Source: Mesostigma viride (Eukaryota > Streptophyta > Mesostigmatophyceae > Mesostigmatales > Mesostigmataceae). From it: DNA of 64,000 bases. Location: positions 3,161,262 through 3,225,261 of the forward strand of contig RPFO01000156.1 in the NCBI GenBank assembly GCA_009746045.1, read 5' to 3'. The position numbers were made by a program, and so were the translations under genes. Shown in pieces: positions 30,115 to 56,686 of the stretch. Within the stretch, counting starts at the first letter, position 1. The number at the start of each line of letters is the position of its first letter. The notes beneath the pieces were generated by a model. The model made no database searches. It saw only the letters and a program-made list of their open reading frames with translations, and was not told where the DNA came from.

Positions 30115-33100
30115 TTAAAACTTGTCCTTCCGGGCTCGAATAGCAGCCATGGCTTGAACAGGGTCTGTGCACCCGGCAGACGCCTGGCATGCAGCGCATT
30201 CATGAATGGTTCAGGCCCACATAGCCACGGGAGCGCGCCCATTCACACAAATGTGCGTGTGGGCACACACTACATGAGAAGGTGCGCAACCATTGTTAAA
30301 CAGCAAGTGGAAATACACATATGGGATTGATTAACAAGGTCATGGAAGACCGTGCTTGCAATGAAAAACCTACAACTCATAGCCACGCAGCCTAGTTACC
30401 TGAATTGATTGCAAACGCATCAACATGGTGCACGCAGCAGCATGTCACCAACAATAGCACTCATACATACCATGTTTCGAAACTTGATGAGTATTGAAAA
30501 ACCAACCCAGAAGCGGGGCGACGAAATAAAAGAACGTCACAAAGAGCCAGCGCAGCATAATATTTCCCAAAGCAGAATAGCAGTATTTCTCTAGTGACTC
30601 CGGTCATGCTAGCTCATCTGACTGCTTAGTTGTCGCGCCGACATCACTCCAGTGTGCTCATCATGCTGGCTCATCTGACTACTTAGTTGTCGCACCGACA
30701 TCACTCCGGTGTGCTCATCATGCTAGCTCATCTGAATGCTTGATAGCAGTAGCGCCAATATCACTGTTGGACATGGCACTCACATTTTGATAGCATAAGA
30801 CCATGATATTTGTACATGGCATGCATCTGTGCAGCACATGTACAGGCTATAGATAGAGCACAACTCACGTTAATTATATAGCACAGCACGTACACCGATG
30901 CTACAGTACAAATGCCAAGGTGATTGGTATTACATATACAAGAATGTATAATCACAGCCGCGCGTAAAACCATGGAAGGTCGTATAAGTAACTGATTTCA
31001 TAAACAACCACGTCGGACTCAAGAAACATACCGGCTACCACAAAGATAAGATGATTGACTTGTATACTTATTAAAATGAGTAGATGGCACGAGAATAGGC
31101 TAGCCCGCTAATTAAAAGCCATGGCCAGCCTCTGTGTCCTATATAATGCTTAACTTTTAGCTTCCTGAAATTACCAACATATTTAGCACTACTGGTACAG
31201 TTATAACAAATACATACTAGTATGATAACGTGAGGGTGTAACCCCAGGGGACTTGAGGTCACTCAAAAATTGCCAGTATTACTGAAATCATGCTCCTAGC
31301 TATTGCCGATTTTAAACCACATTGCTAGAAACTGACGTTGTGGACGACGACTTGCACTTTTTTTACGGCTTTGGTGACAGCATATGGCACACGTACAACA
31401 GCCTCCTGGAGACACGTACTGCAGGTAATGGTCATACGATCACTAGCAGCAGACTATACCGCATTGCGAGATACCACAGTTGACACATGTGCCGACAGCA
31501 TTGCATATATAGAGCCCTAACAGTTTGTTAAAAACACATAAGCTATCGAGCTCTAACCCATTCTGTAGGTAAAAGCTAGTACGCGGCGCACTGCATGGTG
31601 CACTTTCAGAACAGCAACGCATAGCCTGCAAGCCAAACTGTTGACTGTCCATTCGCAACATTGAAGTAAAACTAAGCCTTAACGGATTCGCGCTGGCTTC
31701 CAGCGCTGTGCGACTGCGTTAGCACGTCCATGTGACAATACAACAAGACGGTCATTCCCCACGGCGCCGTGATCAATCACTGGCCTCACCATCCTTCCAG
31801 ACACACTGGCATGCATTTCATGCTGGACCAGTCGAACATACCCATTTTCTGTTCAATGTGCACAGCAGACCACTCATCCCCGACATCCCCATGGCCACCT
31901 AAGAATCGCCATCGCACACATTGCATCCCTCAATTCTCCATCCTCCCCACTGCGCCCCACAATCTCCACGCCTGCCCCGGCTCCTGCTTGCGTGCTGGCT
32001 CTCGTGACAGTGATCCGCCATGCCATTTCAATCTAGAATCAGAAGTCGATGCATCGGTGAGCCTGGGCGGCAAATCAAAACAGCAAAACAAGTCTGACTA
32101 TACCGCACTAATAAAGTCCCAAGCTTGTGCTGGCAATTCTACGTCACCATCCATCGTCTCAAAGCAGGGCCTGACCCCTACAGTCACGCGATGTGCTAAT
32201 TGGCTGCGCGGTCGCATCAGGGGTGGCCCCCTATTAGTAGGCCTTCACTTGCACATCCAGTCTTGCCCAAGGCGTACCTTCAAGGCCGGTTCCCGCACCC
32301 GAAGAAAAGGGTTATACGTAAGCTCCTGCCCCATCGTGGACGGCACGGTCGGGCGACCACCCCGGAGCTGTTCCACCACCCACGCGAGCTTTTCGTGGAC
32401 CGCCGTGTTGTCGGCATCCACCGTGCGTGCAAACTCCAGGTTTTTCTTTGAGTACTGCGAGCCAGGTGTCAGAAATGCCAGCGCAGATGAGGGCATGATA
32501 AACAAAGCTGCAGTATTGGACCAGGAGGTTAAGTCTAATATTTCTAGCTAGTCTGCGCCGGGTATGCTATTCCAACCAATCTGAGCACTGATTGGAGTGA
32601 GTAGTCTTCATCATGGTAATTTATACCAGGATTAACAATCATGCACGTAATGATGGCACGCACTATATAAACCTGTATGGTAGGGAACACATATACACAG
32701 GAGTGGAAACGAAAACGGTAACGACATCTGGCTGGAAAAATGTACATCTGGTTGACAAATGTTGTACATAGTAATGTCAGAGCACAGAGCTCTAGATAGC
32801 AATGCCTAATTGTGTGAGTTACTTGAAAACTTGTTATACTTGAAATGGATGAATGAAATCTTAAGCTGCTTGGAATGAACGGTGGGCGTTAACAAAAAGA
32901 ATGCCAGATCGGATGGCTGAGTCGGATGGGGGAGGGTGCATGCATGGGTGATTAAGGCGTACTGCTGGATATGATGATCACCTCATGTGCCAGTTATAAT
33001 ACGATGTTACTTTCACCTCTGTCATCGATTCCTTCTTTCCCCCCAAAATTATCTGACATTAATAATTCCAATGTTGAGTTGCTTTACCTCCAATATGCCA

Positions 33101-36100
33101 GCTTATTTCGATTTGTCGGCTTGTGTGTCGGATGAAAGAACTAAACATGGTCCATGTGTCAGCAGTTTGGCTTGTGTGTCGGATGAAAGAACTAAACATG
33201 GTCAATATGTCAGCAGGAATACGCTAACAGCGCAACATAGTGCATGCACACCATGCCTGCATCAATACCAGCGTTCATGCGTATGGGCAGAATCATACAC
33301 TGCCTCCCTCGTGGGATATGGTCACTTATAGCGCACCTCGTGCCCTCAGCACGTGCATCGCCAGTGCATGGATTGATTTGTTGATTAAAACCCACGTCGG
33401 ACTGCGTCATGTGAGTCCCAAGACAGGAGATTTCAATATTTGAAACACCACAAGAAGCAGAGTCAGAGCGCCCTACCTTTTCTCACAGCCTAGACGGGCA
33501 GGCCGCAGATCGAGAGAGTACTCTCTCTGCATCATTGAAGGTGCAGGTGCCACAACTATGGACCCATGCTGAATGAGACCTCGCGTTTGTTAGCACGTGG
33601 CGGGATTCTTCAGTCCACATGCCACCTACATGGGCCGCCAGTGGGTCACTTTTGGGTCACCCTTCGGTCAGCCTTGGGTCAGCTCCCATCCATCCCATGA
33701 TCGATGGCTCAGAATCAAGCTTCATGACTCAAGCAGACCCAAGGCTGACCGGGGCGCGGCCCATGCGCTCACGGGCATATTTAGTGATTGTCTCCCCAGT
33801 ATTATATAGTGCTTGAACCTGATTAACACCTGCTGATAGCTTACCTCGTGCCTGGCTGCCCGCAGCACACCAGTCCATGCATGTGGCCAATGGGCATATT
33901 TGTTGACCGTTTCCCCCATGCAGGACACCATGTACTGTACCCCCGACATCGAGTACGTCGTGATCGCAGTACAAAAGTCCACGTGGCCAATGGGCATATT
34001 TGTAGACCGTTTCTCCAGCACACCATGTACAATACCCCCTAACGCCTACTATAGCATACCTCGTGGCCGCAGTACACCAGCGTGTCGGGTGGCAGCTTGG
34101 CAAGCACCCCATTGAGTGCGTGGTCCATGTCTGCTGGGGATCCTTCGAAGAACCGGCCACACCCGGCCACAAACTGCAACCGGCCGTCCAACGGCATGCA
34201 CCATAAATAGCAGCATAAATAAATAGCAGCGGATTAAGCCGACACTGCTGTAGTCAGCAGCCCGGTCGGCATTGATTAGATAAAGATGGAGGGTTAGATC
34301 AAGATCGAGGGTAAGTAGATATAACGATCGAGGGTAAGTAGATACGATCGAGGGTGATTCGATAACGATCGAGGGTAAGTAGATAACGATCGAGGGTGAT
34401 TAGATAACGATCGAGGGAAAGTAGATAACGATCGAGGGTGATTCGATAACGATCGAGTGTAAGTAGATAACGATCGAGGGTAATTAGATAACGATCGAGG
34501 GAAAGTAGATAACGATCAAGGGTGATTAGATAACGATCGAGGGTAAGTAGACAACGATCAAGGGTGATTAGATAACGATCGAGGGAAAGTAGATAACGAT
34601 CGAGGGAAAGTAGATAACGATCCAGGGAAAGTAGATAAGGATTGAGGGTGATTAGATAACGATCGAGGGTAAGTAGATAAGGATCGAGGGTAATCAAGTT
34701 CGGCGGCTCAAGCCTGGCTGAACAGACACCTCAGAGCAGCAAGGCAGTTCAGAAAAAAACTAAGGATGCATGCATGATAGTTGGTTGGAAAGCGCTGGAA
34801 AAACCAAATGCCAATGGCTGAATTCTGGAGCCACGTTAGGCTAGGGATTCGGCTGCGTTGGAAAGCGAGTATCGCCAGGGACTGGTAAGTTTTTGGACTC
34901 CCTTGATTGGATCCCAGATGCATGTGGCGTAATACTCAATGATCGCTGTCAACTGACATTCTGTCATGATTTGCTTGCAAAGTGTAATGCTGATTGCTGA
35001 ACTATGTCTACACTGAGCTTTCTCTACCTGGCCAGCAAGATCATGCTCAAGCGCCAGTGCACGCTGAAGTAGCTGCTTCTGGATGGACAGCAGTCTAAGG
35101 GCACCCCACATGCAAGCCGAATGATAGAACAGTCTAAGGGCAAGTCACATGCCGAATGATAGAACTGTGTGGCCAGCCATGCAAGGGTCAGGGTTACTAT
35201 CGCAACCATGTCTGCTGACAAATCCTATCTATCGCCAGCCACGCAATGATGCATGAGGTCGGCAAGTGGGATGCAGTTGACATCCACGAATGTTCTGTCT
35301 GTTTATTGACATAAACCCAACATGAAAAGTGCTCACATATAAAAATATATACTACTAAGCCCAACATGCACAGCGCTCACAGGCACACTTGAAGGCGGGT
35401 TGTACGATGAATGGTAAGTACTAAGAGATAGTGTATCCCCCTTCTACAGTGACCAAGTTATGATGCACCATGTTAATGGTTCCCTGCACGAACCTCTCCG
35501 CCATATTTAAAATCTAGCATTTGTGACAGCCGAGGCAGCTCCGCCTTGACAACCAACGAGTACCAACAAACACGCCCATGCAGTTCCCACGTACACAGCC
35601 AGCCTCCCTCTGCGCCCTGGCAGCGATGCCCCAGCTGTTCTGGGCCGACCCCCGGGCTCGGCTAAGCGACCTAATCCTGCCCTAGCACAATATAACACAA
35701 CCAGCAGCCTCAGTGAGTGCTCACGAACCGACCGTTAGTATGTTGGTCAACTAATTACATCACTCCGCGGCCATTGGTTTCTGATGGAAACAGGAAACCA
35801 AATTATGGTGCATCTACCCTGTGATTGTATGCAAAAACTAAACTATAACCCAGGATGCCTCGCCTCACGTCCCTCTAATAATCCATTTTGCTCTTCATGC
35901 TCTTCATTTGCTCCATGCGAAGCTCTAAGAACACCATCCCGACCTTCTCACAACACTCACAGTTCTCACAGCGTGACACCCACCCTATAATATAGTTCAT
36001 CATGGCCAACTTGGGGGGTTGTGGGTTGTGGGTTAACCCTGGGTATGCCCCTAAAAACCCTCAGGCTCCGGGAGAGGCCTTTATACTCAGACTCCCAAAC

Positions 36101-39100
36101 TGGCGCCTCTAAATGTGATCCAAGCCTATCTGTGGGCTCTGGACCATGGGGCAGCCTTACTGCATCCGCTATGAGTCAGCCATGCTTTGCCCATGCAGAG
36201 AGCCACTCCCTGCTGAGACGCCATCATGCCCTAGCCATTGCCTAGCCATGATCATCTTCCACCCCATGTCCGCAACTTTGCACAGCTGCTGGAATACATG
36301 GTGGTGCAGGTGCACCTCAGTTGTGCACCCCGAGTAGGTGGCAATTTACACCCACCACCTGCAGGTTGTCGCCTAGAATGTATTAACCCTTAGTCGGGAA
36401 ACTACCCGACCTGTCGGGTAGTTTGACTAACGGTCGAATTTCGCGCCGCGCCGTGAGCGCCGCGCCACCTGTGACGGATGTCAGTGGTCCGGTGGGTCCG
36501 GGAACACTTATGGACGAGGGTGATGCATAGGTTTGGGGGTAATATTCGCCATAGCTTGGTAATTACAACGTGCATTGAGCAGGTATCACGTGACTTTGGC
36601 GGGAAATTTTCACTCGCGCGCGCGCGTAACGAGATATGGCTGCCAGCATGCCGTTCTCACGGAAATTTTGCGTGTCGAGGCTAGAAACGGTTCAGAATTT
36701 TGCTCAGAATGACTATGCGTGATTTTCGTAGGTCAGGCATGGCCAAACTTGTAGGATTGGGAAAATTCAGGTAGGAAAATACTGCCTTCTGGGTCGTCAG
36801 TGCCAGATGAGTAATCGCTTATCATATTTCCATTTTATCCTCATGGCCGGGCAGTCTGCGCAAGCCCAAGCATCCAGATTTGGTACCGGATGTCCGCTGA
36901 TGCGTTTGCTGGGAATGCGGACGCGTTTACAGGTAATATTTGAACGGAGCATCAACCTTGTAATAATAAAGGATGCATGCATGATGCGGCTATGGCGACC
37001 TATGCCTGTAAAGCAATGGTATGTGTGAGATATGAGGGTCCCGGCCAGTGAAATCCGGGCAGGACGTGAACGAGCCAGGTACGGCAACGTGTTTGCGTGT
37101 CCTTTGCAGCGGATTACGTCTCCCATGCATTATATTTGACGAGCTTTTTAGTGCACCTTTCAGCAAGCCTCCATGCCTGCTGTAAAGAGGGGTATTAGCC
37201 CTGAAAGTGACCAGTTTATGGCATTTCTTTGGAGCATATCATTTCGTTAATGCAGGTAGGCAACATGTTTGTATTCCAGCACCTTTGGCAATCTTTTATA
37301 GCTTGTTATAATGCATTCTTGTATTGCATGTCATAGATGGCTGTTTACGCGCGCGTAACCCACACACATGTATGAGCACCTTATATAGGTCTAATGGGTT
37401 ATCCGGGTGGTCTGACCCAAGGAAAGCACCATTGGACTATCCAACTAAGTTGTCCAATGTTGTTGTTGAGGTTCCATACCCTCCCTGGGAAGTTAGGTGG
37501 GGGTTCACTTTTCCTTGGGCAAAAAAGATCGTCTTTTGGCCAAGTTTGACTGGAGCTATCATCCAAATGCTTCGATAAACCTGTGGTATTATTGCATATT
37601 CTGAAAGCCCTCGAAGTGTAGATACTCCTAGCATCTTGGTTGGGGGCATTTGGAGTTGTGGCCTGTGAGTTATGATTTTTCTCATTTTCAGGGGTCTGAA
37701 AGTGCCAAAAATGGTCCTCCCGACTAAGGGTTAAAAACCATATGCCCCTTCTCAGGGATATGTGTTACATATCCTCCCCATGTGCGGAGGTATGTTCTTA
37801 ATTAGTTCAACTTCTACTTTCTAGGGATATTGAGGCCATTAATGCCAACGACTTACCAGGGTGTCCCCGGTGAACACCGCCCCAGGCTCGTTGGGCGTGC
37901 GCTTGTCTGTCACGTAGTAGCAGATGTGGCCACCCGTGTGGCTGCCCGCCGGGGACCAGCATGCGACGCAGGGTGCAAGCAATGCAAGGGTTTCCAGCGG
38001 AGCAGCGGATGGCACTTGGTGAGGACGATAACGATTTCCGAGGATGGAGTTATTGCTGATGCAGCACATGAGATATGTAATTTAAGTCCTCCATTATGCA
38101 GTATATTTTGTAAAATGAGGCAGTACAAGCGTTACCTGAGACCTTAAAAGATGTTCCTAGGGTCTTGCTCACAAGCTCGACTCTTGTTTCCCACAGATTG
38201 ATCCTTTAAAAAGCCAAAGCCAATCCCATCAGGGGGTTGATGAGCCGCATGAACTTGGCTACTAGCTAACACGTTCAACTGTCCTCACGTGTACGCACCC
38301 TCGTCATACTGGGAGCGCCATGCTCTATCTGCCTATTTCTACCCGCCCTATACCACCTGTCCACGGGGGGGACTAGGACAAGAAGGCGGCAGATATCTCT
38401 AAAGCAGAGCACCGCGGAGTGCCACGTATAGGCGATCGACACGGAAGAATACAGCTGCAGGCTAAATATAGAGTAACTCAAAGCCACAGGATGTGACTGC
38501 ACAGAGATACGAGACAACCAACATGAGGCACTTCATCAATAATTGCAGTTGTGTCCCCACTCAATACATGCGCCGCACCGGTCACGCGACTGCCGGTGTC
38601 TGCCTCACAGCGGAAGCAACGGACGTAGACCAAAATCACATTTTGGCGAGAAGGGCGAGCTTAAAATTGTCTGCTATTATGTCACATGGTGCAAAAAGTC
38701 ACTATTAATAACGGCCAACAGATGCAGGTCACTATGCTGGGTGCAAACAATTCCAATAATTATAGCTAATGCACAACTCAGCAGGACAGGATGGCCGAGC
38801 CGCTTACCATGCATGCGCACATTTCATCCCTCATCATGGTCATCATGCAGCCACACACGTTATTGTCCCCCGATGGGTCCCTGGCATGCTCAAGGATTCG
38901 TACGAGGTTTTGAAGAAATACCCACCAGGGTGTGTGGAGGCAGGTGACCTCCAGGGAGGATGCCAGGGTGAACGTGTCGCCATGCTGGACGGGCTTGGTG
39001 CAGGCAGGGACCTTGTCCAGGGTGCCGCCCACGATTGTAACACCTGGCAGGGACGCGGCCATCGTCTCGTTCCCCCCCGCGTGGTCCCTGGGTGGTTGAG

Positions 39101-41864
39101 TGGGTGGAGGCGCCGAGAGAGTTGGGACGCACCCCATTCGTGCAAAAAGGCAGAAAGGCATTAGGCTACACATTAGTCGATAATGCTCTGACACTCACGC
39201 AAGTCATTACAATCAAAATCAAATCAACAGGCCCAGCCACACCAACAAGCCCAGCCTGCACAGCCAGCCACACCAACAGGCCTGGCCACAACCATCCACA
39301 CCAACAGGCCTGGCCACACCCAGCCACACCAACAGGCCCGGCCACACCCAGGATGTCAGGTTTCTCTTCACATGATCCACAGGCAATTGTGCTGGGCGTC
39401 GCGAGGGCTACCCCTTCCATAAGGGGTGAGGGGTCATTCTGCTTAGTTCTAGTTACACGGCACCACTAGCATTATATAATGTGATGTCCAGTTGAGCTTC
39501 GCGAGGGCTACCCCTTGAGGGGGTAGGATTCCCTAGTCCCTCGTCCTAAAGGGAGCTTACCAGTGCCGGTGCGTGGTCAGGTCCTAAAGGGAGCTTACCA
39601 GTGCCGGTGCGTGGTCAGGTCCTATAGGGAACTTACCAGTGCTGGTGCGTGGTCAGGTCCTACAGGGAGCTTACCAGTGCCGGCACGTGGTCAGGTCCTA
39701 AAGGGAGCTTACCAGTGCCGGTGCGTGGTCAGGTCCTACAGGGAACTTACCAGTGCCGGTGCGTGGTCAGGTCCTAAAGGGAGCTTACCAGTGCCGGTGC
39801 GTGGTCAGGTCCTACAGGGAGCTTACCAGTGCCGGTACGTGGTCAGGTCCTACAGGGAACTTACCAGTGCCGGTACGTGGTCAGGTCCTATAGGGAACTT
39901 ACCAGTGCCGGTACGTGGTCAGGTCCTACAGGGAACTTACCAGTGCCGGTACGTGGTCAGGTCCTACAGGGAGCTTACCAGTGCCGGTACGTGGTCAGGT
40001 CCTACAGGGAGCTTACCAGTGCCGGTACGTGGTCAGGTCCTACAGGGAACTTACCAGTGCCGGTACGTGGTCAGGTCCTACAGGGAGCTTACCAGTGCCG
40101 GTGCGTGGTCAGGTCCTAAAGGGAGCTTACCAGTGCCGGTGCGTGGTCAGGTCCTACAGGGAGCTTACCAGTGCCGGTACGTGGTCAGGTCCTATAGGGA
40201 ACTTACCAGTGCCGGTGCGTGGTCAGGTCCTACAGGGAGCTTACCAGTGCCGGTGCGTGGTCAGGTCCTACAGGGAGCTTACCAGTGCCGGTGCGTGGTC
40301 AGGTCCTATAGGGAACTTACCAGTGCCGGTGCGTGGTCAGGTCCTACAGGGAGCTTACCAGTGCCGGTGCGTGGTCAGGTCCTAAAGGGAGCTTACCAGT
40401 GCCGGTGCGTGGTCAGGTCCTACAGGGAGCTTACCAGTGCCGGTGCGTAGTCAGGTCCTAAAGGGAGCTTACCAGTGCCGGTACGTGGTCAGGTCCTACA
40501 GGGAGCTTACCAGTGCCGGTGCGTGGTCAGGTCCTACAGGGAACTTACCAGTGCCGGTGCGTGGTCAGGTCCTATAGGGAACTTACCAGTGCCGGTGCGT
40601 GGTCAGGTCCTACAGGGAGCTTACCAGTGCCGGTGCGTGGTCAGGTCCTACAGGGAGCTTACCAGTGCCGGTGCGTGGTCAGGTCCTATAGGGAACTTAC
40701 CAGTGCCGGTGCGTGGTCAGGTCCTACAGGGAACTTACCAGTGCCGGTGCGTGGTCAGGTCCTACAGGGAGCTTACCAGTGCCGGTGCGTGGTCAGGTCC
40801 TACAGGGAGCTTACCAGTGCCGGTGCGTGGTCAGGTCCTATAGGGAACTTACCAGTGCCGGTGCGTGGTCAGGTCCTACAGGGAACTTACCAGTGCCGGT
40901 ACGTGGTCAGGTCCTACAGGGAGCTTACCAGTGCCGGTACGTGGTCAGGTCCTACAGGGAACTTACCAGTGCCGGTGTGTGGTCAAGACGGTCGTGATCT
41001 GCACGCCTTCTGCCTTCGCAGCACTGAGCACCTTCTCGGGCCCTGCTGGGTCAACGGCGGCCGCCTGCTTGGTGCTGTCGTCCACTACCCTGTGGAGTAG
41101 TAGGGACACACATGCGCCTGAGTGAGTGCATTCCCAGCGTAAGTTGTGAAATTTTAGGCGCAGGGAAATTTCCATGCAAAGCGTTGAGAAAAACAAGGCG
41201 CTGAGAATCGTCGTCGTCACGCCAGCTAGACGTATAGTCGGCCCGTGGTCCCGGCGTGCTGATTCGGACGTGCCTCACCTGCCGGCCATGGGTGACTATC
41301 ACACACAATATATATATATATATTGCAACGGATAGCAATCAAAGTCAGGCGAATGACCTGACAGATAACAAATATCAACATCTTGAACATACATAAAGCT
41401 ATATAACTTAGTAATTTCATCTAACAAACTACAACAAAAGAGCCCCCTCCCCAGGCATTTCTAATTCTAAGCGATTCAACTTGCATAGTGGAAATTCAGT
41501 GGAAAACACTAGTCGACGCAATACTTCCACGAAGATGACATTACTACTACATTAACCAGAGCGACAACTCTCCCCTTAACAAATAGCGAAAGAATGCGTA
41601 TATACAGGATACTGTGATGCCGACCAGTGAGCTGCAAAGTAGCAACTTATTAATTTCTTGGGTCGTTAGCAAGGTTACACTTTTTCATTACATTGTCGAG
41701 ATAGTTTCCCACACTGAGCAAACAAGTCACGTGGGGTAGAACGCTCAGTGAGGTGCTGCGAAGTATATATCATCCATAGCAATTTATCGGAATGCTACCT
41801 CGACAAGATCCACTTACAGGTAGGAAAAATTATCCTCTAGGACCGGGACAATAACAACTCTCAT
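30115..41864 (-). CDS. Glyoxalase II (hydroxyacylglutathione hydrolase), seven exons
   Basis: It hydrolyses S-lactoylglutathione to lactate and glutathione, the second step of methylglyoxal detoxification. Exons in transcript order: 41818-41864, 40967-41089, 38926-39087, 37857-37941, 34060-34173, 32278-32454, 30115-30183. All introns are GT-AG and every phase fits. The joined frame is 777 nt, 258 residues, the usual cytosolic length. It starts [16 protein letters not shown]. The metal-binding motif is THRHWDHAGGN, split W (TG|G) between exons 2 and 3. Other metal ligands are His in [11 protein letters not shown], Asp in [17 protein letters not shown] and His in VYCGHE. The C-terminus [11 protein letters not shown] carries the basic glutathione-binding residues. 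No transit peptide is visible upstream of the ATG. The introns total about 11 kb and are full of repeats. Two LINEs begin 258 bp upstream of the ATG. Confidence 0.96.
30184..32277 (-). other. Glyoxalase II intron 6
   Basis: 2.1 kb between the exon ending at GCCTTGAAG|GTACGC and the last exon (acceptor CATGCCAG). Apart from the 57-bp repeat it holds nothing recognised. Confidence 0.8.
30598..30770. repeat. 57-bp tandem repeat, about three units
   Basis: Units start near 30605, 30662 and 30719 with CATGCTAGCTCATCTGA; the third is diverged. The array lies in the last intron of glyoxalase II. Confidence 0.85.
33118..33220. repeat. 51-bp tandem duplication
   Basis: GGCTTGTGTGTCGGATGAAA occurs at 33118 and 33169 with the same following bases; it lies in intron 5 of glyoxalase II. 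Confidence 0.85.
33775..34090 (-). repeat. Tandem duplication of an exon end and its 5' splice site (glyoxalase II exon 5/intron 5)
   Basis: The true exon end CTGGTGTACTGCGGCCACGAG|GTATGC (at 34060) recurs twice downstream in the intron, as TTTTGTACTGCGATCACGAC|GTACTC (33957) and CTGGTGTGCTGCGG...CACGAG|GTAAGC (33845). The spacing is 103 and 112 bp. The intron block between them (AAATATGCCCATTGGCCAC) is repeated too. Confidence 0.8.
34262..34693. repeat. 21-bp minisatellite, about 20 units
   Basis: Unit GATAACGATCGAGGGTAAGTA with GTGATTA and GAAAGTA variants. It lies in intron 4 of glyoxalase II. A minus-strand ORF through it (Leu-Asp-Arg-Tyr repeats) is a by-product of the 21-bp period. Confidence 0.92.
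36165..37800 (-). repeat. Dispersed repeat family, copy 2 (inverted, interrupted)
   Basis: The inverse of copy 1 (28795-29130), block for block: CATGCTTTGCCCATGCAGAG, GGTGCAGGTGCACC, CACCTGCAGGTTGTCGCC, then after the interruption CCCTTCTCAGGGATATGTGT. The piggyBac-like element 36387-37730 splits it at TTAA. It lies in intron 4 of glyoxalase II. Confidence 0.75.
36387..37730. mobile_element. piggyBac-like non-autonomous element 2 (TTAA target)
   Basis: 1,344 bp bounded by TTAA at 36383-36386 and 37731-37734. Terminal inverted repeats are perfect for 13 bp: CCCTTAGTCGGGA...TCCCGACTAAGGG. Removing the element and one TTAA restores the dispersed repeat as seen in copy 1. TTAA duplication with CCC-type ends is characteristic of the piggyBac superfamily. 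It encodes no transposase that I can see. Confidence 0.82.
39215..39345. repeat. Minisatellite with core CCACACCAACAGGCC
   Basis: Four to five imperfect units of CCACACCAACAGGCCTGG-type sequence with variable spacing, in intron 2 of glyoxalase II. Confidence 0.8.
39546..40985 (-). repeat. 38-bp minisatellite built from the glyoxalase II exon 2 end and 5' splice site
   Basis: About 38 units. On the gene's strand each unit contains TGACCAC, then a G/A, CACCGGCACTG|GTAAGC (or GTAAGT), TCCCT and AGGACC. The first 20 bases are the last 20 coding bases of exon 2 (encoding TTHRHW of the metal-binding site); the rest is the start of intron 2. The unit nearest the gene is the real exon end at 40967. 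The variable positions are A/G, T/C and A/C/T single-base changes. Because 38 is not a multiple of three, long ORFs through the array are an artefact. Confidence 0.93.
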
Positions 41865-43440: not shown

Positions 43441-45159
43441 CACGTCCCCTGTAGAAACTCAGTCCTAAAAATAGGACTGAGTATACCATCTTTGAGATCA
43501 TGTGGCGGTAAGGGTAGGGGGGTACCCCATATATTTGATATGCATCATAGCACTCAATATCATGCTAATGCTTGGGTATGTGCTTAAAAAATCATATGTT
43601 GACCAAATCATGTAAAATTATACATGACTCTCAACCCTTACTCGCGATTTTGGAATTTTCTGTGGAAGCACGAGTGTGTAAAATCCAATAAAATCCATAT
43701 TCACTATTAAAAATCATAGGCGTGTAGATATTAGAGTTCTTGAACTGTGGAAAAAAACTGGACTCAATTCGGCCACTGGCACTGCCTGAAACATGCAAAA
43801 CACTGCCAGTCCTATAAATAGGACTGGGCCTTGGTAACAAAATGCTAGCATGGGAGTGCGGTCGTACTACACACCACCGTGGCCACCAACCATGCCAATC
43901 AACTCATTTCCCTTCCAGCATAATAGGACAACATGCTTGCATCATCATATTGCAGTTATATTATACCTTATAATGTGTGAGAGCCTATGCAAGCACGTAG
44001 GGAATGGGTTTGGATACCTACCCACGAAAGGTTTTTTTGTGTGTGTTAACCACCAATGTATTGGGCAGGTTAAGCATATTTCAAGTGTCTCTAACAAGAA
44101 TGGACATGGATGAAACTGTTTTGCCTTGCCATGGCATGGCCAACATACTTGCTGGCACATGATGACAGTGGTTTACCACCAAGATCTTTCACTCACCCAT
44201 ATAAGCTTGAAAGCACCCTTGACGAGGCCCATGGCCACACAATTATGCAGTATGAACGTAGCAAAAGAACAACTAACATCTATGAAGGTGTTTAAACCCA
44301 TACAGCGCCTAAAAACCTGCACAACTACACCAGGGCAAGGCAAATGCCTGGCAACATCATCTAAAAAGGGGGTTTTGGAGAGGGGCAGGCAACGGTCAAG
44401 AAAGAGCATCAAGACTCGAAACTGGCAACACCTCGCAAGCTTAAACTCATGTAAGAACATCAAGAAATGATGAGACAACGATATTCCGGCTTTACCTTGC
44501 ATGGCTGGCGTTACCTTGGCCCAGGCGGTGCCCGCAAAAGTGGAACTTTGAGGCACACACACCATGAAGTGACAGAGTGGTCGAAATCATCAAATCTATA
44601 CTGCCACTAAGTCAATTCTATGACCATGCATGATAACAAGTAGAAAGAAACCTATAAACCCTTTGACTTGCGCCGGAAAGCAGTTGTAGTAATCAATTCC
44701 GTCGGCCTGCCTGATCGCAGCTTTTTCCAGCAAGAACGGTGCCGACACCTAGTAAATCGCATTTCCGCGAGCTGAAAATTGACTTGTATCATCTCTATGA
44801 TATATAAAAACTATTTCCTGAGTTTGGCCAGCTATATCGTCGGAAAACGTAAACTGCATGCATGGGCGCAAGCCGCCATGGCTAGGTCGTGCATTTCCGG
44901 AACGCACGTTTCATGTGGAAAAGTACCCTTACCACCTGTTCTTTGACCGTACATTTAGCCGCTCATACCAAATCCAAAAAAATCGCAAAAATATGTCCAA
45001 GAAAGATCTTTTCACGTAGTATTTGAATAAATTTTGAGGGAATTTTTTTGACAAACCTTCCGATCGGGGCAAATTTTCTACGAAACCCCAAATCTCAGTC
45101 CTAAATTTAGGACTGAGTTGAACTCAGTCCTAAAAATAGGTGTGGCTACAGACGACGTG
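43441..45159. mobile_element. piggyBac-like non-autonomous element 1 (TTAA target)
   Basis: 1,719 bp between TTAA at 43437-43440 and 45160-45163. The terminal inverted repeats are CACGTC-NN-CTGTAG (12 of 14 positions match). Just inside both ends, and at about 43812, lie palindromes of the type CAGTCCTAAAAATAGGACTG. Removing the element and one TTAA restores the LINE 1 reading frame exactly. Internal ORFs (e.g. 44173-44565 minus, 130 codons) are unrecognised, so it probably relies on another element's transposase. Confidence 0.85.
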
Positions 45160-45163
45160 TTAA

Positions 45164-47404
45164 GAGGCGGTAGCAGTCACCGTGGAGAATATACAGGTGG
45201 AGAATAGTGGTTACAGGGTGGGGGGATGTTATGAAGCCTTCATAGGGGTTAGGGCCACTTAAGCATCCAAAGGGGCGATTAAGGGGGTTGAGGTATATAT
45301 CATTAAAGAATAGGGGTTGGCGTGCAACTTCCTCACGTAGTGTGGGGAATAGTAGGCGGTCGGGTTTAAGTGCCATAAAGCCTTGCCATATACGAGCCCA
45401 GTACCAAGGAAGACCTCTGGTGAGCTTCGGGGAGGGGAGGCGAGCAGTAAGCAGTGCGGCTCCAGAGTGCCAGGAAATACCATTGGAGTGATGAGTAAGA
45501 CGTGAGAGGGTTACACGTGCCAGAAGACATCCAGGGTGGGTGTTGACACCAATGTGGGCAGAGATAACTTGTTTGGCATACACAGACCATAAACGCCATT
45601 GCATATTGTGTAAGCCTAGTCCTCCAAGAGGCCACGGCATAAAAGACATTGACTCTCTGATCCATCCGTGTACCTGGCGGCTGAGATCGCTCGATTTTTT
45701 CCAAACAAAGTTATGCCCCAGTCGTTGAATAAGAGACACGGTGTGTTCATCCGGTGGGTGGGCCTGACCGAAGTACAGCAGCTTGGAGAACAGCAGCTGG
45801 TTCGTAACGAGGACCTTGCCCCGGAGGCTGAGGCGGTGTACGCCAGCCCAGCGGTTGGCCACCTGTTGTACACCAGTAAGTTTGCCCAGTTGTTGTGATT
45901 CGTCGTATAAAAAGGTTTTGACTTCCAATAACCTCCCTTCGGCTGTCCGACCGATAGGGCAGTTATGCAAAAGGTGGTATCCTCCTGGCGGGACCCATGT
46001 CACCGCCAGGTTAGTAGGTTGGAGAGTCGGGTTGGTTGTTCTGCCAATATGCAAGCCCGTGGACTTTTGCACGTTGCAGCGTTGTTGGGAGGCGGTACAG
46101 TATGTAGATATGTTCTCAAGCACAGCATCAACATCACGCAGGGAGGTGCAAATGTTAGTAGTGTCATCGGCGTAAGCAGTTTGAAACAGACCACGTGTGT
46201 GGTGAGGGAGGGGGTAGCCTTGAATACGGCTGTCCTGTTGATGAAGAAAGAAGAGGCCAGCGTGAGCGAGCAGAAAGAGAAGGGGAGAGAGACAGTCGCC
46301 TTGTGGGAGAGAGCGTGTGCTATGGCCTATTTGGGATTTATGTCCATTAATTAGTAGGTGCCAAGTGAGGGATTTGATCATGCCTAGACTGACCTTAATA
46401 AGTTTAGGTCCAAATCCAAGCCCGTGTAGTATAGCCTCGAGGTATTTCCAACATATGCGGTCGAATGCCTTTTCAAAATCCCAAAATAAAATAAGACCTA
46501 TAATATTGTTGCGCCATGCGTCATCAACAATGTCCATGATCATGGTGATGCTGTCGCTGATGTGTAGGTTGGACCTGAATCCAACTTGTTCCGGGCCGAT
46601 CAGATTATCTAGTACACTGTAGAAACGGCGTTGCAAGAGTTTGCTGGCTAGTTTGTAAGGGACTGTGAGCATGCGAATGGGTCTATAATTTTTCCAACTT
46701 GTTTTATCCCCTTTTTTGTGTAAGAGGATGAGGATTGTTTCCGACCACTGGCCCACAACAGTTTCGGTGTTCCAGATTTCCAGGATGCATTGGTATAGAT
46801 CCCTGCCTATGAGGGGCCAGAACGTTTTAAAAAACTCTACTGGAAGGCCATCTGCACCAGGTGCGCTACCGGTTTTGAGATGTTGGAGTGCTAGAGATGT
46901 TTCTTCCATAGTGGGGCTGGCGTCTAGTAGAGCTTGTTGTGACGGAGAGAGGCGGTGGGGAATTGCATCGAGGATTTTTTGTGTGGCTGTATTTGCAGAG
47001 GGGTCGGGTTCTGTCCGGAACAGGGTGGAGAAAAAAGCATGTCCAGATTGTAGGATGTCTTGGGGGGTGGTATGGGTGCCAGTCTCGTCTGTAATTTCTG
47101 TGATGGTGGTTTGTGAGCGCGGGGGTGGGATAAATGCAAAGAATTCCTTATTCATTCGTTCACCCTTGACATGCCACCATGTATTTTCCACATCTAGGGC
47201 TTCTGCGTGGCGTTCAAGGCGTAGCTTATCCATCTCAGTCTGGCACAGTTGCAGTCGTGTTAACTCGTGCGGGGCTAGGCGGGGTTTGGATTGCAACATA
47301 GTAATAACGCGTTTGTAGTAATTGTAGTCTTTGCCTTTTATGCGGCGTTGTTCTAGATCGTAGGCCTTAGAGGAGTCAAGGATGTGCGAGAGGCATGCTT
47401 GCAT
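45164..47404 (-). pseudogene. LINE 1 reverse transcriptase
   Basis: A 746-codon open stretch. RT motifs in order are LKTGSAPGADGLPVEFFK, HKKGDKTSWKNYRPI, GPEQVGFRSNLH, FWDFEKAFDRI (first Asp), LPQGDCLSPLLF and TAYADDTTN (catalytic Asp pair). The thumb and connection follow, to CYRLL at the transposon junction. The N-terminal join to the endonuclease needs one base near 47470; the bases just upstream in the RT frame read VREQWRDWK. Confidence 0.9.
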
Positions 47405-47466
47405 CCAGAGAGTAGTGCTTGGGTATTCTACTTGCTTGGTTTTCCAGTCCCGCCATTGTTCTCGGA

Positions 47467-48327
47467 CTAGGGGCGAAAGGCGGGGTCAGCCAGCAGCTTT
47501 TTATTGAGGCGAGGGACGCCTGGTCCTCTGGGGGGGCTGGAGTGATACACCATGGTGAGAAGGCAGGGGTAGTGATCAGAAAAAACTGTGGAGCGTATGA
47601 CCTCTGCGTGACAAATGAGGGATGCCCAAAAAGGTGACATAAATATGTAGTCTAGACGGCTAGTGATGCGGGTGCCCTGACGAGTGGACTCTCGAGTATG
47701 CAGATGGTCGCGAGGTTTGATAACATCCTGTAGTGAGAGGCGTGTGAGGTGGTTGGCTAACGAGGTCGTCTCAAGCCCAAGGCCATGGTCTAGGTCAACA
47801 TTAAAGTCACCCATTAGTATGACCTCATGAGATTGGTCCAGGAGGGGGGCAACCATAGCAAACAAATCATCAAAAAATTTTATACGGTCAGAGTGTTCGT
47901 TGGGGGCATATACCGATATAATATAGCCAGTCTTACCGCCCCAGGAGATGCATTGCCGGGTCCAGCGACCCTGCCATGTGTTGGGAGCAGTATCTGTGTG
48001 CTGGGCCCATGGGTGCAGTTGAACATGAGGGTGTGGCGGACGTCGATATTGTAGCAATGCAGTGCCTCCACTAGTCCCCCGTGCCCATGCCCATCTGCGT
48101 TCCATGTCTGGGGTGCGTCTTGTAAAGGATTGTAGCGCTTTGGCGTCTATTCCAGGAAATTTATGTTCTTGTAGGCCTACCCAGATTTCATGAGATGGGC
48201 CGACATAGGGTTGGGTGATACTGGCTAGTTGTGCCTGGAGCGCAGATATTTTAGACTGTCCCTGGGTGCGAACACCATAAGTATTTAAACCCTGAACGTT
48301 CCAAGATATTATAGTAAGTTGACTCAT
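47467..48327 (-). pseudogene. LINE 1 AP-type endonuclease
   Basis: ATG at 48327 (MSQLTIISWNVQGLNTYG). It has the endonuclease motifs WVGLQEHK (catalytic Glu), ISVYAPN, LMGDFNVDLD, SRLDYIF and FSDHYPCLLTM (catalytic Asp-His). It makes the target nick in target-primed reverse transcription. The frame runs to a stop at 47467, where LINE 2 is open through, so the stop reflects a single-base change. Confidence 0.9.
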
Positions 48328-49043
48328 AAGTTAGTAGAAGGGGAGAGAATGCAGAAGGATGCGAGCGTTGGCGTACCTCTCATGCCTTGGAAGACGACGC
48401 ACGCGCCCGCTTGGTTGCGTCGGCTGTGGTGACCGTTGGCTGCGCCCGTTTGGCCGAGGGGTCGTCCTGCGCTGTCGCTTCCTCGAGAGAGCCAGTTGAG
48501 GAGGGCATCATGTCGAGATCATGGGGTAGGACCGGCAGCCGTGCCGCCGGAGCAGGTATGACAACGAGGACAACAGGAGCAATAAAGAGTTAGATAGCGA
48601 AAAAAGGTGTCCCATTCCAGGGGTTATGCTGGGGGAAGCCTGCATTGCACCATCCGTGACTGCAATGTCAGGTTGGGTCTGTATCGGGTGTCATGGTGAC
48701 TTCCGGTCACCGAGTTATGCGAGAGCCTGTTCCTCAGCAGGATCGCATGGTTAAAGGTGTAAAGGGTGAGTAGAAACAGCACTACCAGGAAGCGTCCAGC
48801 TTCCTGAGCTGTTCTACCACTATTCCAGGTCCATTTGTAGTGAGCCGTCACGCTATTCTGTATGCCTCTAGGCATCAGCCGTACTTCCTGTACGCCTTGC
48901 CAGCCGACATCACAGATAGCGTGGCGGCTCAAGGACCAAATGAAAGTTGCTTATATGGGTATCGTTAGACGCACCTTTTCACGGCGAATCCGTTGGTATG
49001 TCGCTGGTCGCGGATGGCCGAAGCTATCGCCTGCTATCCTCTA
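48328..49043 (-). other. LINE 1 5' untranslated region
   Basis: No coding capacity. A block near 48960-48995 (TTAGACGCACCTTTTC) is similar to one near 57250-57275 at the 5' end of LINE 2. LINE 1 stops where the second copy of its target duplication begins (49044). Confidence 0.6.
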
Positions 49044-50549: not shown

Positions 50550-51330
50550 AGTTGGCAGCATGGTAACATGGTGACATTTGCTAGCAAAAAATACCGTATT
50601 TTCAGCACTTTCTGGCATGTATGCATATATAATGACATCAAATGAACTCAGTTGGGCCTGGAACTTTGCACATGTTCTAAACACATCCCATGCAGCATGC
50701 CCACAAAGTTTCAGGCTGGTTGGATGACACATTGGTGACAAATGCTAGCATAAATACCCAAAAAATGCAGTTTTTCATGGTTTTTTAAGGGTTTTATCAC
50801 ACATATGCATACATAATGACACCAAATGAACTCAGTTGGGCCTGGAACTTTGCACATGTTCTAAACACATCCCATGCAGCATGCCCACAAAGTTTCAGGC
50901 TGGTTGGATGACAAATTGGTAACAAATGCTAGCATAAATACCCAAAAAAAGCAGTTTTTCATGGTTTTCCAAGGGTTTTATCACACATATGCATACATAA
51001 TGACACCAAATGAGCTCAGTTGGAGCTGGAACTTTGCACATGTTCTAAACACATCCCATGCAGCATGCCCACAAAGTTTCAGGCTGGTTGGACGACAAAT
51101 TGGTGACAAATGCTAGCATAAATACCCCAAAATGCAGTTTTTCATGGTTTTCCAAGGGTTCCAACACATGGGTGCCTATATCAATGAACTCTGAACAGCC
51201 TAGAACTTTGCACAGCTCATAAAAACATCTATGTTAACTGCCCACAAGAAATTCAGACTATTTGCATGACCAATAGGTGACAGATGCTAGCAACATTGCA
51301 CAAAAAATGCAGTTCCTAGTAATTGTTTTT
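50550..51330. repeat. 184-bp tandem repeat, three good units plus decayed ones
   Basis: Units marked by AATGACACCAAATGAACTCA at 50631, 50815 and 50999 (period 184), then a strongly diverged unit near 51180-51330. AT-rich with no coding sense. Lies in the left part of the TIR element. Confidence 0.9.
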
Positions 51331-51532: not shown

Positions 51533-52076
51533 CCCACCCACCCACCCCACCCACCCACCCACCCACCCACCCACCCACCCACCCACCCACCCACCCACCC
51601 ACCCACCCACCCACCCACCCACCCACCCACCCACCCACCCACCCACCCACCCACCCACCCACCCACCCACCCACCCACCCACCCACCCACCCACCCACCC
51701 ACCCACCCACCCACCCACCCACCCACCCACCCACCCACCCACCCACCTGCACCCACCCACCCACCCACCCACCCACCCACCTGCACCCACCCACCCACCC
51801 ACCCACCCACCCACCCACCCACCCACCCACCCACCCACCACCCACCCACCCACCCACCTGCACCCACCCACCCACCCACCCACCCACCCACCCACCTGCA
51901 CCACCCACCCACCCACCCACCCACCCACCCACCCACCCACCCACCCACCCACCCACCCACCCACCCACCCACCCACCCCACCCACCCACCACCCACCCAC
52001 CCACCCACCCACCCACCCACCCACCCACCCACCCACCCACCCACCCACCCACCCACCCACCCACCCACCCACCCAT
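51533..52076. repeat. (CACC)n microsatellite, about 540 bp
   Basis: Nearly pure CACC repeats with a few CCTGCACC-type or 3-bp interruptions. The G-rich strand is minus. ORFs through it (Thr-His-Pro-Pro and Gly-Gly-Trp-Val repeats) are artefacts. Confidence 0.97.
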
Positions 52077-52081
52077 ATAAC

Positions 52082-52250
<169 letters not shown>

Positions 52251-52265
52251 ACACACAAAGTCATG

Positions 52266-52512
52266 CCTTCCCTCCCTCCCTCCCTCCCTCCCTCCCTCCC
52301 TCCCTCCCTCCCTCCCTCCCTCCCTCCCTCCCTCCCTCCCTCCCTCCCTCCCTCCCTCCCTCCCTCCCTCCCTCCCTCCCTCCCTCCCTCCCTCCCTCCC
52401 TCCCTCCCTCCCTCCCTCCCTCCCTCCCTCCCTCCCTCCCTCCCTCCCGCCCGCCCTCCCTCCCGCCCTCCCTCCCTCCCGCCCTCCCTCCCGCCCTCCC
52501 TCCCTCCCTCCC
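52266..52512. repeat. (CCCT)n microsatellite
   Basis: About 60 tandem tetranucleotides; the right third carries CCCG variants. Confidence 0.97.
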
Positions 52513-52799
52513 CCCATCAATCATGCATCCATTCATTCATGCATGCATCCACTCATTCATGAACATGCCTCCGTTGGCCAGGGGTTCAAAATGATGCAAC
52601 AGGCACCAAAAAAGGGAGAAGGAGCCGCCTCCCCAACGTGCCGCCCGGCGACGGCAGCGATGGGCCCAGGGGGGGAACAGTGCGCTTTGTCTTGTTCGCC
52701 GGGGGTGAGCCGGCGGGGTGCGGGCACTGTCGCGTTTTATTTAGCCCGCCCGCCCCAGTCCTTCTCGGAGTGCCTTCTCAGGCCATGGCGTCAGGGTAA

Positions 52800-53520: not shown

Positions 53521-55107
53521 GCCGTCGATACGTAGCGCCGTGCCCCAGGTAGAGGTCCAGCACCCTGACAATCGGCGGTGACGCGCGCAGAAAGCCATCA
53601 TACGGGTTGTGTCCGTGGAGATTGCCAAGGGGCTTGTTAGTAGCGTCTGTGATTAAGTCATTAAAAAAGAGTGGCTGCCGTGCCACCTCCTCTCGAGTAG
53701 TAGGAAAGACTAGGCGACCCGGCTTGAGCTTATTGTAACCTGTCCATATGCGCTGCCAGTACCATGGGAGTCCTTTGTACGAAATAAGGGTGCTGCCCAG
53801 TATGCCCGCCCCCAGTACGTTGCCACGAGGTGCCACTAGCATGGGTGGAAAGAGAGGCTAGCGTTTCACGTGCAAGCATGCAGCCAGGGTGTGTGTTAAC
53901 GCCCATAAAAACGGATATCACTTGTTTAGCATACAGCGACCACAGACGCCATTGTATGTTGTGGAGCCCGAGGCCCCCGTGCACCCATGACATGAAGGAC
54001 ATCTCTCTGTTGATCCATCCGTGGACCGTGTGGGAGATTAAGCCTTTCTGTTTCCAGACAAAATTGCTGCCAAGGCGTTGGATGAGCTGTGTGGTGGCAT
54101 CATTGGGTGGGTGTGCTTGGCAATAATACAAGACCTTAGAGAACAACAGTTGGTTGACGATCAGGGTTCGCCCTCGTAGGCTCATGCGGTGGACGGCCCC
54201 CCAGCGCCCTGCGGTAAGGAGAACGCCTGCAAGCTTGCCCACGTGGTTGGTTTCATCATACATGAAAGAACGTTGTTCAGCCAAGCGTCCCTCGGGTGTG
54301 CAGCCGATGGGACAATTGTGCAAAAGGTGGTGATCCCCCGGCTTGACCCAGGTCACAGCCAGGTTGGGGAGGGCGTAGCGTAGGGTGTTGGTTTTGCCGA
54401 TATGCAGTCCCGTGGACTTGAGCACATTGCATCGTTGTTGTGTGGCAACAGAATAGGTAGTGATATTATCCATGACAGCATGCACTTCAGGCAGAGAGAT
54501 ACAAACATTTGTTGTGTCATCCACATAAGCCGTTTGGAATATACCTTTACCGTTACCTGTCGGGAAGCCCCGAATGCGAGGATCGTTCTGGTGTAGCCAG
54601 TAGAGTCCTGCGTGGGCCAGAGAAATAGAATAGGGGACATGCAATCTCCTTGTGGTAGCGATCGTGAGCTAGCGCCGGTCGCTGACTTGTGTCCGTCTAT
54701 TAGTAAATACCAAGCCAGGGATTTGATCATACCCATAATGACGGTCATGAGTTGTGGGCCAAATCCTAGTGCGGTTAGAATGTGTTCTAGGTATTCCCAG
54801 CACATACGGTCAAAGGCTTTTTCAAAATCCCAAACAATATGAAACCCTCTATATCGTCGCGCCAGGCTTTTTCCACAATGTCCATGATGAGGGTAATGCT
54901 GTCGTTGATGTGGAGATTGGCCCTAAAGCCCACTTGCTCCGGACCAATGAGGAAGTCTAGGACGGTGTATAAGCGTCGTTGGATTATTTTACTGATGATT
55001 TTGTACGCTACCGTAAGGAGACGGATTGGGCGGTAGTTTTTCCATAGAGTCTTGTCTCCTTTTTTGTACAGTAAGATAAGCGCAGATTCAGCCCATCTGC
55101 CGCTCAC
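53521..55107 (-). pseudogene. LINE 2 reverse transcriptase
   Basis: Read from 55107 to 53521 in four frames with changes near 54800, 54600 and 53800. Motifs are YKKGDKTLWKNYRPIRLL, GPEQVGFRANLHINDS, LPQGDCMSPILF and TAYVDDTTN. The catalytic pair is VDD here, against ADD in LINE 1. It ends TYRRL at the TIR element; the joined reading continues SYDEVSTW. The numerous frameshifts make it inactive. Confidence 0.85.
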
Positions 55108-56686
55108 CTTACCGTGCCGCCAAATTTCAAGAATACATTCGTAAAATCTATGTGTAGAAGGGACCAGAACGTTTTCCAGAATTCAATAGGCAGACCGTCG
55201 ACCCCGGGGGCGCTACCGGTTTTGATGTGTTCCATAGCTGTTGTGGCCTCTTCCATGGAGGGGATTTGATCGAGTTCCTGCTGTTGAGCTGGTGTAAGGC
55301 GACGGGGAATGGCATGTAGGATTTTTTGCATGGCTGCAGATGAGTCAGGATGGGGTTCGTTTAGAAAGAGAGCTGAGTAGTAACGGTGACCACTCTGTAG
55401 TATGGAGGTGATGTCTCGGTGGCTGCCGTGTTCGTCTTGGATTTCCGTGATAGAGGAGTGAGCTTTAGGGGTAGGAATCAGAGCAAAGAACTCTTTGGTC
55501 ATTCTTTCTCCTACCTGGTGCCACCACAGATTTTCTGAGTCTAGTGCTAATGTGTGACGCTCGAAACGTAGTTTGTCAAGTTCGGTCTGAGCTCTTTGAA
55601 GTTTTGTTAGTTCCGATTGATACAGGGTAGGCTTCGCTTGGAGTTTATTCACTATGCGTTGGTAGTACCGATAGTCCTGTCCTTTCTGGCGGCGGATATT
55701 TTGTGAATACAGTTGGGAAAATTCTAGAATGTTAGCTAGGCCCTCCTGCATCCAGCTGCAGCAGTCTGTGTAGCTACCCTTGCTGGCTCTCCACGACTGC
55801 CAGCGTGTCATGATCTCAAAGTAGTACTTATCGTCCGCGAGTAGGTGTTTGTTTAAGCGGGGAATGCCGGGGCCCCGGGCGGAGTTGGTGTGATGGGCAA
55901 GGGTAACGATGAGTGGGTAGTGATCAGAAAAATTAACAGAACGGTCGACCGATGCGTAGCAAACTAGGTCCGCCCATGCGGGTGTGATGTAGATTTTATC
56001 AAGACGACGAGTAGTGCGTACATTTAAACGTGTGGCCAGCCAAGTGGGCCCGTGGTCTCGTGAGCGGATGACATCCTGTAAGTTCAGGTCCATGATCTGT
56101 TTACTGAAGGCCGCTGTGCGTATAGGGGGGTGTTCATCCAGGTCTATATTGAAATCGCCCATCAACACAATTTCGAACCCCTGTGAGATAAGGTCAGCGG
56201 CCATTTTGAAAGGGAAGGGTAGAATGAGGCTTGATCCGTTGGCTCGGTTGGGGCATATACACTAATAATGTATCCCTTATTTCCTGCCCATGTAATGGAC
56301 TGCCGCGTCCAACGGCCCTGCCATCTAGCCGCGCTGTGTCGGTAGCTATAGCCCAGTCCTGGCATGTCAGCGTAGGGTTGGGAGGTTTACGGTATTGAAT
56401 GAGGGCAGTGCCCCCTTGTGTACCGCGTGCCCATGCCCAACGGTGAACTGTCCTAGGTGCAAGTGCTCTAGCAGCTCTAAGGGCTGTGCGTGTGGCAGCT
56501 TCTTGGATTTTATGTTCCTGCAGTCCTATCCAAATTTCATGCGGGGCCCACGTAACGCTCGAGCAAGTTGTGTAATGCATTTGCTAATTCTCGTGTGCGA
56601 GGTATTCGCTGTCCCTGCCCTGGTGTGTGTGACCCGTATGTGTTCAGCCCCCTGACATTCCACGATACCAGTGTTAGTTGACTCAT
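55104..56686 (-). pseudogene. LINE 2 endonuclease and endonuclease-RT linker
   Basis: ATG at 56686 (MSQLTLVSWNVRGLNTYG). After frame changes near 56560, 56330 and 56200 it continues with IWIGLQEHK, YIISVYAPTEP, VLMGDFNIDLDE, RRLDKIYITP and FSDHYPLIVTL, so the catalytic Glu, Asp and His are all present. From 56204 to 55104 it is one open frame through the linker (RHTLALDSENLWWHQVGERM) to the start of RT (IKTGSAPGVDGLPIEFWKTF). Confidence 0.87.

Follow-up and report, generated by a model that had tools for sequence, protein, structure and literature searches.

A 38-bp minisatellite spanning an exon-intron boundary lines up 38 donor sites behind exon 2 of a glyoxalase II gene

RESULTS

An intact glyoxalase II gene with a repeat array at the end of exon 2

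The window, i.e., the whole 64,000-nt stretch of Mesostigma viride DNA analyzed here, carries an intact glyoxalase II gene on its minus strand. Its seven exons, joined and translated, yield 258 codons followed by a TAA stop, and its six introns all have GT-AG borders (Table 1). Glyoxalase II is a detoxification gene. The best match of the 258-aa product in the Protein Data Bank was human glyoxalase II (1qh3, residues 1 to 258, E = 6.6e-94), and a 236-aa version without exon 7 matched the Pfam families HAGH_C (1.3e-18) and Lactamase_B (1.3e-13). The full-length match, the THxHxDH motif, and the HAGH C-terminal domain assign the gene to glyoxalase II, the identity that an earlier note on this DNA had given it from the letters and that the intact translation also bears out. 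The motif lies at the junction of exons 2 and 3; in the human enzyme, the counterparts of its His, His, Asp, and His bind metal. Skipping of exon 2 or exon 3 was computed to leave the reading frame intact.

A search of the genome with glyoxalase II gave eight matches, six of which were exons 2 to 7 of the window gene itself, while the other two were weak and fell on contig C302; thus, no second close copy was found in the genome. The C302 locus (G000:C302:40405-43916) is a distant second glyoxalase-II-like gene, identical at 40% and 57% in two short stretches. A pattern search of viral contigs revealed no relative of the GLX2 protein.

Table 1. Positions of the glyoxalase II exons, the parts of the donor array, and two donor-like arrays elsewhere in the genome
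Feature	Position	Strand	Remark
Exon 1	41818..41864	-	start codon to donor CCT|GTAAGT
Exon 2	40967..41089	-	123 nt
End of exon 2 copied in the array	40967-40986	-	last 20 nt; codes LTTHRH and two bases of Trp57
Exon 3	38926..39087	-	supplies the rest of Trp57, then Asp58-His59
Exon 4	37857..37941	-	
Exon 5	34060..34173	-	
Exon 6	32278..32454	-	
Exon 7	30115..30183	-	TAA at end
Donor array	39543..40966	-	38 donors in 37 full 38-nt units and one last unit of 18 nt
Complete units	40966 down to 39561	-	37 units
Last incomplete unit	39543..39560	-	donor and first 18 nt of intron; continues into unique intron
Functional donor	40961..40966	-	GTAAGT; sole one of 38 yielding the 258-aa protein, by translation
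L118	G000:C2:4704566-4704776	minus	34-bp unit, 7 GGTAAG sites
L129	G000:C1:13782557 onward	plus	mostly 38-bp spacing, 16 sites

TRF detected a 38-nt tandem array at 39543-40985 (38.0 copies, 95% matches). Read on the minus strand, its first unit begins at the exon 2 donor (40966) and directly touches the 3' end of the exon. The array accounts for 1,424 of the 1,879 nt of intron 2. Each unit combines about 20 nt of the exon end with 18 nt of the intron start, and its last 20 nt are identical to the end of exon 2 at 18 of 20 positions, with the splice point in register. All 38 donors read GTAAG[T/C] after CTG (15 GTAAGT and 23 GTAAGC). An 18-nt donor-side pattern, with up to three mismatches allowed, occurred 39 times in the window, 38 times inside the array, compared to a mean of 0.22 and a maximum of 2 occurrences in 100 shuffles. 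With an array touching the exon end, and with a usable-looking donor and a piece of exon in every unit, the locus has the layout of a donor-spanning minisatellite. The description in the earlier note, about 38 minus-strand units of some 20 exon and 18 intron bases following exon 2, is borne out by TRF, the listing of units, and the 18 of 20 identities. Its placement of the exon boundary at the unit touching the gene likewise agrees with the intact 258-codon translation through the first donor. The range given there, 39546 to 41089, also takes in exon 2; the array proper spans 39543 to 40966.

Variants are interleaved along the array, only 4 of the 36 neighboring pairs of units being identical. 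None of 18 lags stood out as evidence of a higher-order repeat, and the longest repeated block, four units, was reached or exceeded in 148 of 1,000 shuffles. Folding of 267 nt revealed no special RNA structure (z = 0.55), and the window yielded neither a tRNA nor an Rfam match at gathering score. Despite a stop-to-stop open stretch of 307 codons, coding of the array on the plus strand was rejected: no ATG is present, and the three plus frames contain 6, 7, and 2 stops.

The gene span holds eight tandem arrays, among which the donor array alone crosses an exon border; one small array sits within exon 6. Intron 4 contains a minisatellite (34273-34693, 21/42-bp period, about 20 copies) that touches no exon and whose plus-strand consensus includes the donor-like motif GGGTAAG, in antisense orientation to the gene. 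A 28-bp tandem repeat of 4.2 copies (39232-39351) lies in intron 2, between the donor array and exon 3.

Inner donors lead to an immediate stop at strengths comparable to the first

For each of the 37 inner donors, a transcript was assembled in silico in which the retained units stood between exons 1-2 and exons 3-7. In all 37 cases, TAA followed directly after Trp57, giving a product of 57 residues, since the retained sequence opens with TGG TAA. Counted by length, 25 of the 37 donors would shift the frame, close to the two times in three that had been expected in the earlier note; instead of a frameshift, however, the uniform outcome is this stop, and the frame is irrelevant to it. Only the first of the 38 donors thus makes the enzyme, which supports its designation as the functional one. 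Two other gene models were rejected: an exon 2 ending at an inner donor, for which TAA, also the stop codon of this gene, is reached at once in 37 of 37 constructs, and a 23-nt mini-exon running from the TAG of a unit to the next donor, which meets a stop after Thr58. CTGAC and TAGG are present in all 37 full units. The pyrimidine content at the unit TAG sites (0.625) falls within the range at the six real acceptors (0.44 to 0.75), so that these sites rank as middling acceptors.

Predicted pairing with the U1 5' end amounted to -9.1 kcal/mol for GTAAGT and -8.0 kcal/mol for GTAAGC in the array, compared to -5.6 to -10.3 kcal/mol for the five other donors of the gene. Both U1 genes found in the genome (2/2) have a canonical 5' end. 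Under a weight matrix based on human donors, 41 of the 749 GT sites in the gene reached at least the score of CTGGTAAGC, and 38 of these 41 lie inside the array. The GTAAGT of the first donor is common to 15 of the 38 donors, and the first is not stronger than the inner ones; it therefore cannot win by strength. A greater openness of donor 1 in predicted RNA structure was inconsistent over three settings. Earliest transcription, exon definition, and enhancers in exon 2 would be the usual candidates for a first-donor preference.

Genome matches fall in this array alone, which most likely derives from the exon

A 76-nt array probe was searched against the genome of origin (440 Mb, 2,243 contigs) and matched 17 times, always inside this array; the search passes over very common words, and such counts are lower bounds. 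Occurrence at unrelated loci, which the earlier note had named as evidence against an origin from this exon boundary, was thus not observed, and the copies at unrelated loci that mark an introner or another dispersed intron-borne element were absent from the same matches. No exact pattern match turned up in contigs of prokaryote genomes or in viral contigs.

Copying most likely proceeded from the exon into the array, since human and bacterial relatives share the conserved motif and its copies in the array no longer hold up as coding sequence. T53, H54, H56, D58, and H59 were retained in all 63 bacterial rows counted. This sample is biased, as the motif HWDHAGGN was part of the basis on which the loci were retrieved, and it leaves out three rows with an extra letter. 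No insertion was present at the position of the exon 2/3 junction in 66 of 70 bacterial loci covering residues 50 to 63. Two bases, both synonymous, separate the exon from the unit consensus. In the exon part of the units, four positions vary, one of them synonymously and three altering His54 or Arg55; at His54, 12 of the 37 units carry a replacement (11 to Tyr, 1 to Cys), all of these being small numbers. Judging by these 12 units, the array copies are freed from coding constraint. At the distal end, the sequence continues into other intron sequence after the last 18 nt (39543-39560), so that this unit probably keeps the original intron start. The position 28 variant was clustered along the array (P = 0.006), and all six T variants at position 12 fell in units 14 to 37, a weak distal bias (P = 0.06 to 0.09).

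Donor columns and genome-wide searches give no sign of selection

Six of the 38 columns of the unit vary, none of them among the six donor columns; as zero variable columns among six are expected by chance with P = 0.33, the donor columns carry no constraint signal. Across the whole genome, triples of donor-like motifs at short spacing were not enriched over the reversed-pattern control (TGGTAAG, 925 versus 2,910; AGGTAAG, 1,177 versus 2,522). These counts are overlapping matches rather than separate arrays, and the control strands differ widely, so that a few large arrays weigh heavily and the numbers indicate no enrichment, not depletion. The suggestion that the array could tune splicing gained no support from either analysis.

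Thirteen other donor-like arrays were chosen by eye among the matches listed, and two of them, L118 and L129, have an exon-like open frame up to the first donor (Table 1). Their 5' flanks resemble a coding exon ending at that donor and had no Pfam match, so that both are unproven candidates. Two further arrays, L119 and L123, have open frames of 189 to 296 codons at the same place, and frame length alone does not single out L118 and L129. Array L117 (G000:C224:5698103-5698918, minus strand) is complex; it is built on a 34-bp unit in which GKDYDIMNL precedes GTAAGG, and copies of a longer unit are interspersed with it.

DISCUSSION

We interpret the array as a minisatellite of the exon-intron boundary that grew in the ordinary way and is tolerated through use of mostly the first donor, without being tuned (probability of about 0.7). 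The homology between unit and boundary is observed directly; it would be explained by a duplication of some 38 bp that took in the end of exon 2 together with the beginning of intron 2, and slippage or unequal exchange may then have raised the number of donors to 38. The intact coding sequence suggests that splicing to exon 3 mostly starts from the exon-proximal donor and that the gene keeps working, the remaining 37 donors acting as decoys within the intron. Use of one of these would, by translation, end the protein after Trp57 and leave a useless and perhaps degraded message. The array would then be at most mildly harmful, and first-donor choice is a plausible reason for its tolerance. Against this stands the behavior of duplicated equal donors in cell extracts, where the one nearest the acceptor is often favored, which would be the worst choice here. 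In ABCA7, a printed parallel, the first donor dominates over single-unit retention, which amounts to 2 ± 1% (PMC5954066).

A dosage device, in which the number of decoys would determine what fraction of messages stops at Trp57 or loses an exon and would thereby tune glyoxalase II output, is very unlikely in our estimation. It would account for the common end point of all 37 inner donors and for the frame-preserving skipping of exon 2 or exon 3, and there are precedents for an influence of repeat length: longer ABCA7 VNTRs show reduced expression together with increased skipping of exon 19, the next exon (PMC5954066), and a title cited in PMC2630376 links the 31-bp VNTR of CBS with reduced activity. 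The lack of a constraint signal in the donor columns and donor-like triples no more frequent than their reversed control speak against it, however, as does the independence of ABCA7 unit retention from VNTR length (PMC5954066). The wider proposal that unit number sets the amount of productive message via built-in stops, and that exon-end donor arrays, with L118 and L129 as unproven candidates, recur in this repeat-rich genome as strain-variable splice-site rheostats, is a similarly long shot.

We regard it as unlikely that the window contains a damaged allele, i.e., a recent expansion in which most messages use inner donors or skip an exon, leaving a weak or dead allele with intact coding sequence. 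Inner donors do outnumber the true one 37 to 1 at like strength, and no other close glyoxalase II turned up in the genome, but the coding sequence, the borders of all six introns, and the stop codon are intact, and the spread of unit variants along the array suggests that it is not brand new. An assembly effect, with a real boundary-spanning repeat in the wrong number of units, would be a natural suspicion for tandem arrays, which are often misassembled; the interleaved variants, the few identical neighboring pairs, and a longest repeated block no longer than some of the shuffles produce make it highly improbable. As for a dispersed satellite or transposon part that adjoins the exon by chance, the abundance of transposon-like frames in the window is outweighed by the confinement of the genome matches to this array, the empty prokaryote and viral scans, and an exon part that codes for an old conserved motif, and its probability is negligible.

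Comparison with known splice-site arrays

The 31-bp VNTR of CBS was reportedly described first by Lievers in 2001, and Turri (1995) is said to be the source for the minisatellite of IFI6 (6-16), the unit of which is 12 nt. Although the earlier note knew of no description of such splice-site arrays, cases are in print for ABCA7 (PMC5954066), CBS (PMC2630376), and IFI6 (PMC4526556). Since similar arrays have been printed from a few human genes, the glyoxalase II array is a further example and not a new kind.

The VNTR in intron 18 of human ABCA7 has a 25-bp unit in 12 to 427 copies, the first two bases of which are the exon 18 donor, and its single-unit retention is unaffected by VNTR length (PMC5954066). 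As in the glyoxalase II array, with its 38-bp unit, units begin at the donor GT and retention leads to a premature stop. Retention of an ABCA7 unit breaks the frame (PMC5954066). Exon sequence is part of the glyoxalase II unit, while the ABCA7 unit is described by the two donor bases at its start (PMC5954066). Human population data and measured RNA use exist for ABCA7, whereas donor use in the glyoxalase II array is predicted from the sequence of one assembly.

In CBS, the human VNTR is named c.1444_1467+7(16_21), i.e., 24 nt of exon end and 7 nt of intron start in 16 to 21 repeats, a layout like that of the glyoxalase II array, with a shorter unit, less intron, fewer copies, and polymorphism in people (PMC2630376). 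According to the same paper, of the two copies of an intron-exon junction created by a 68-bp duplication, one is mostly used, a further case of the cell choosing one of duplicated borders (PMC2630376). In human IFI6, repeat units serve as donors for three mRNA species, two downstream units being used as well and giving different isoforms (PMC4526556), whereas the inner donors of glyoxalase II all give a stop. In a potato RdRp gene, an intron was gained through a tandem duplication that, like the one proposed here, crosses an exon-intron boundary and carries splice signals; unlike here, it is a single acceptor-side duplication that produced a new intron and no array (PMC4974935). The glyoxalase II gene reads without a new intron, and its array lies within one intron, so we found no intron gain of this type.

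By itself, the array leaves the understanding of splicing unchanged. Its contribution lies in how many donors it has, in the immediate stop common to all inner ones, and in being a non-human case, in which a metabolic gene joins a kind of repeat that published work has linked with CBS activity and ABCA7 expression. It can be seen as a natural experiment on the choice of one donor among 38 nearly identical ones, only the first of which gives a working protein, and the donor used can be read directly from RNA.

Remainder of the window

Other parts of the window are rich in transposon-like open frames. LINE-like frames with Exo_endo_phos and RVT_1 matches lie on the minus strand upstream of the glyoxalase II gene (45146-48330 and 55104-56261), and a Gypsy-like integrase with matches to Tf2-type SH3 and chromodomain families lies on the plus strand (15976-17293). 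No relative of two window transposon proteins was detected in a pattern search of viral contigs. About 1 kb of tetranucleotide repeats (51533-52516; TRF consensus CCCA, 244 copies) is adjoined by a 184-bp tandem repeat at 50620-51314.
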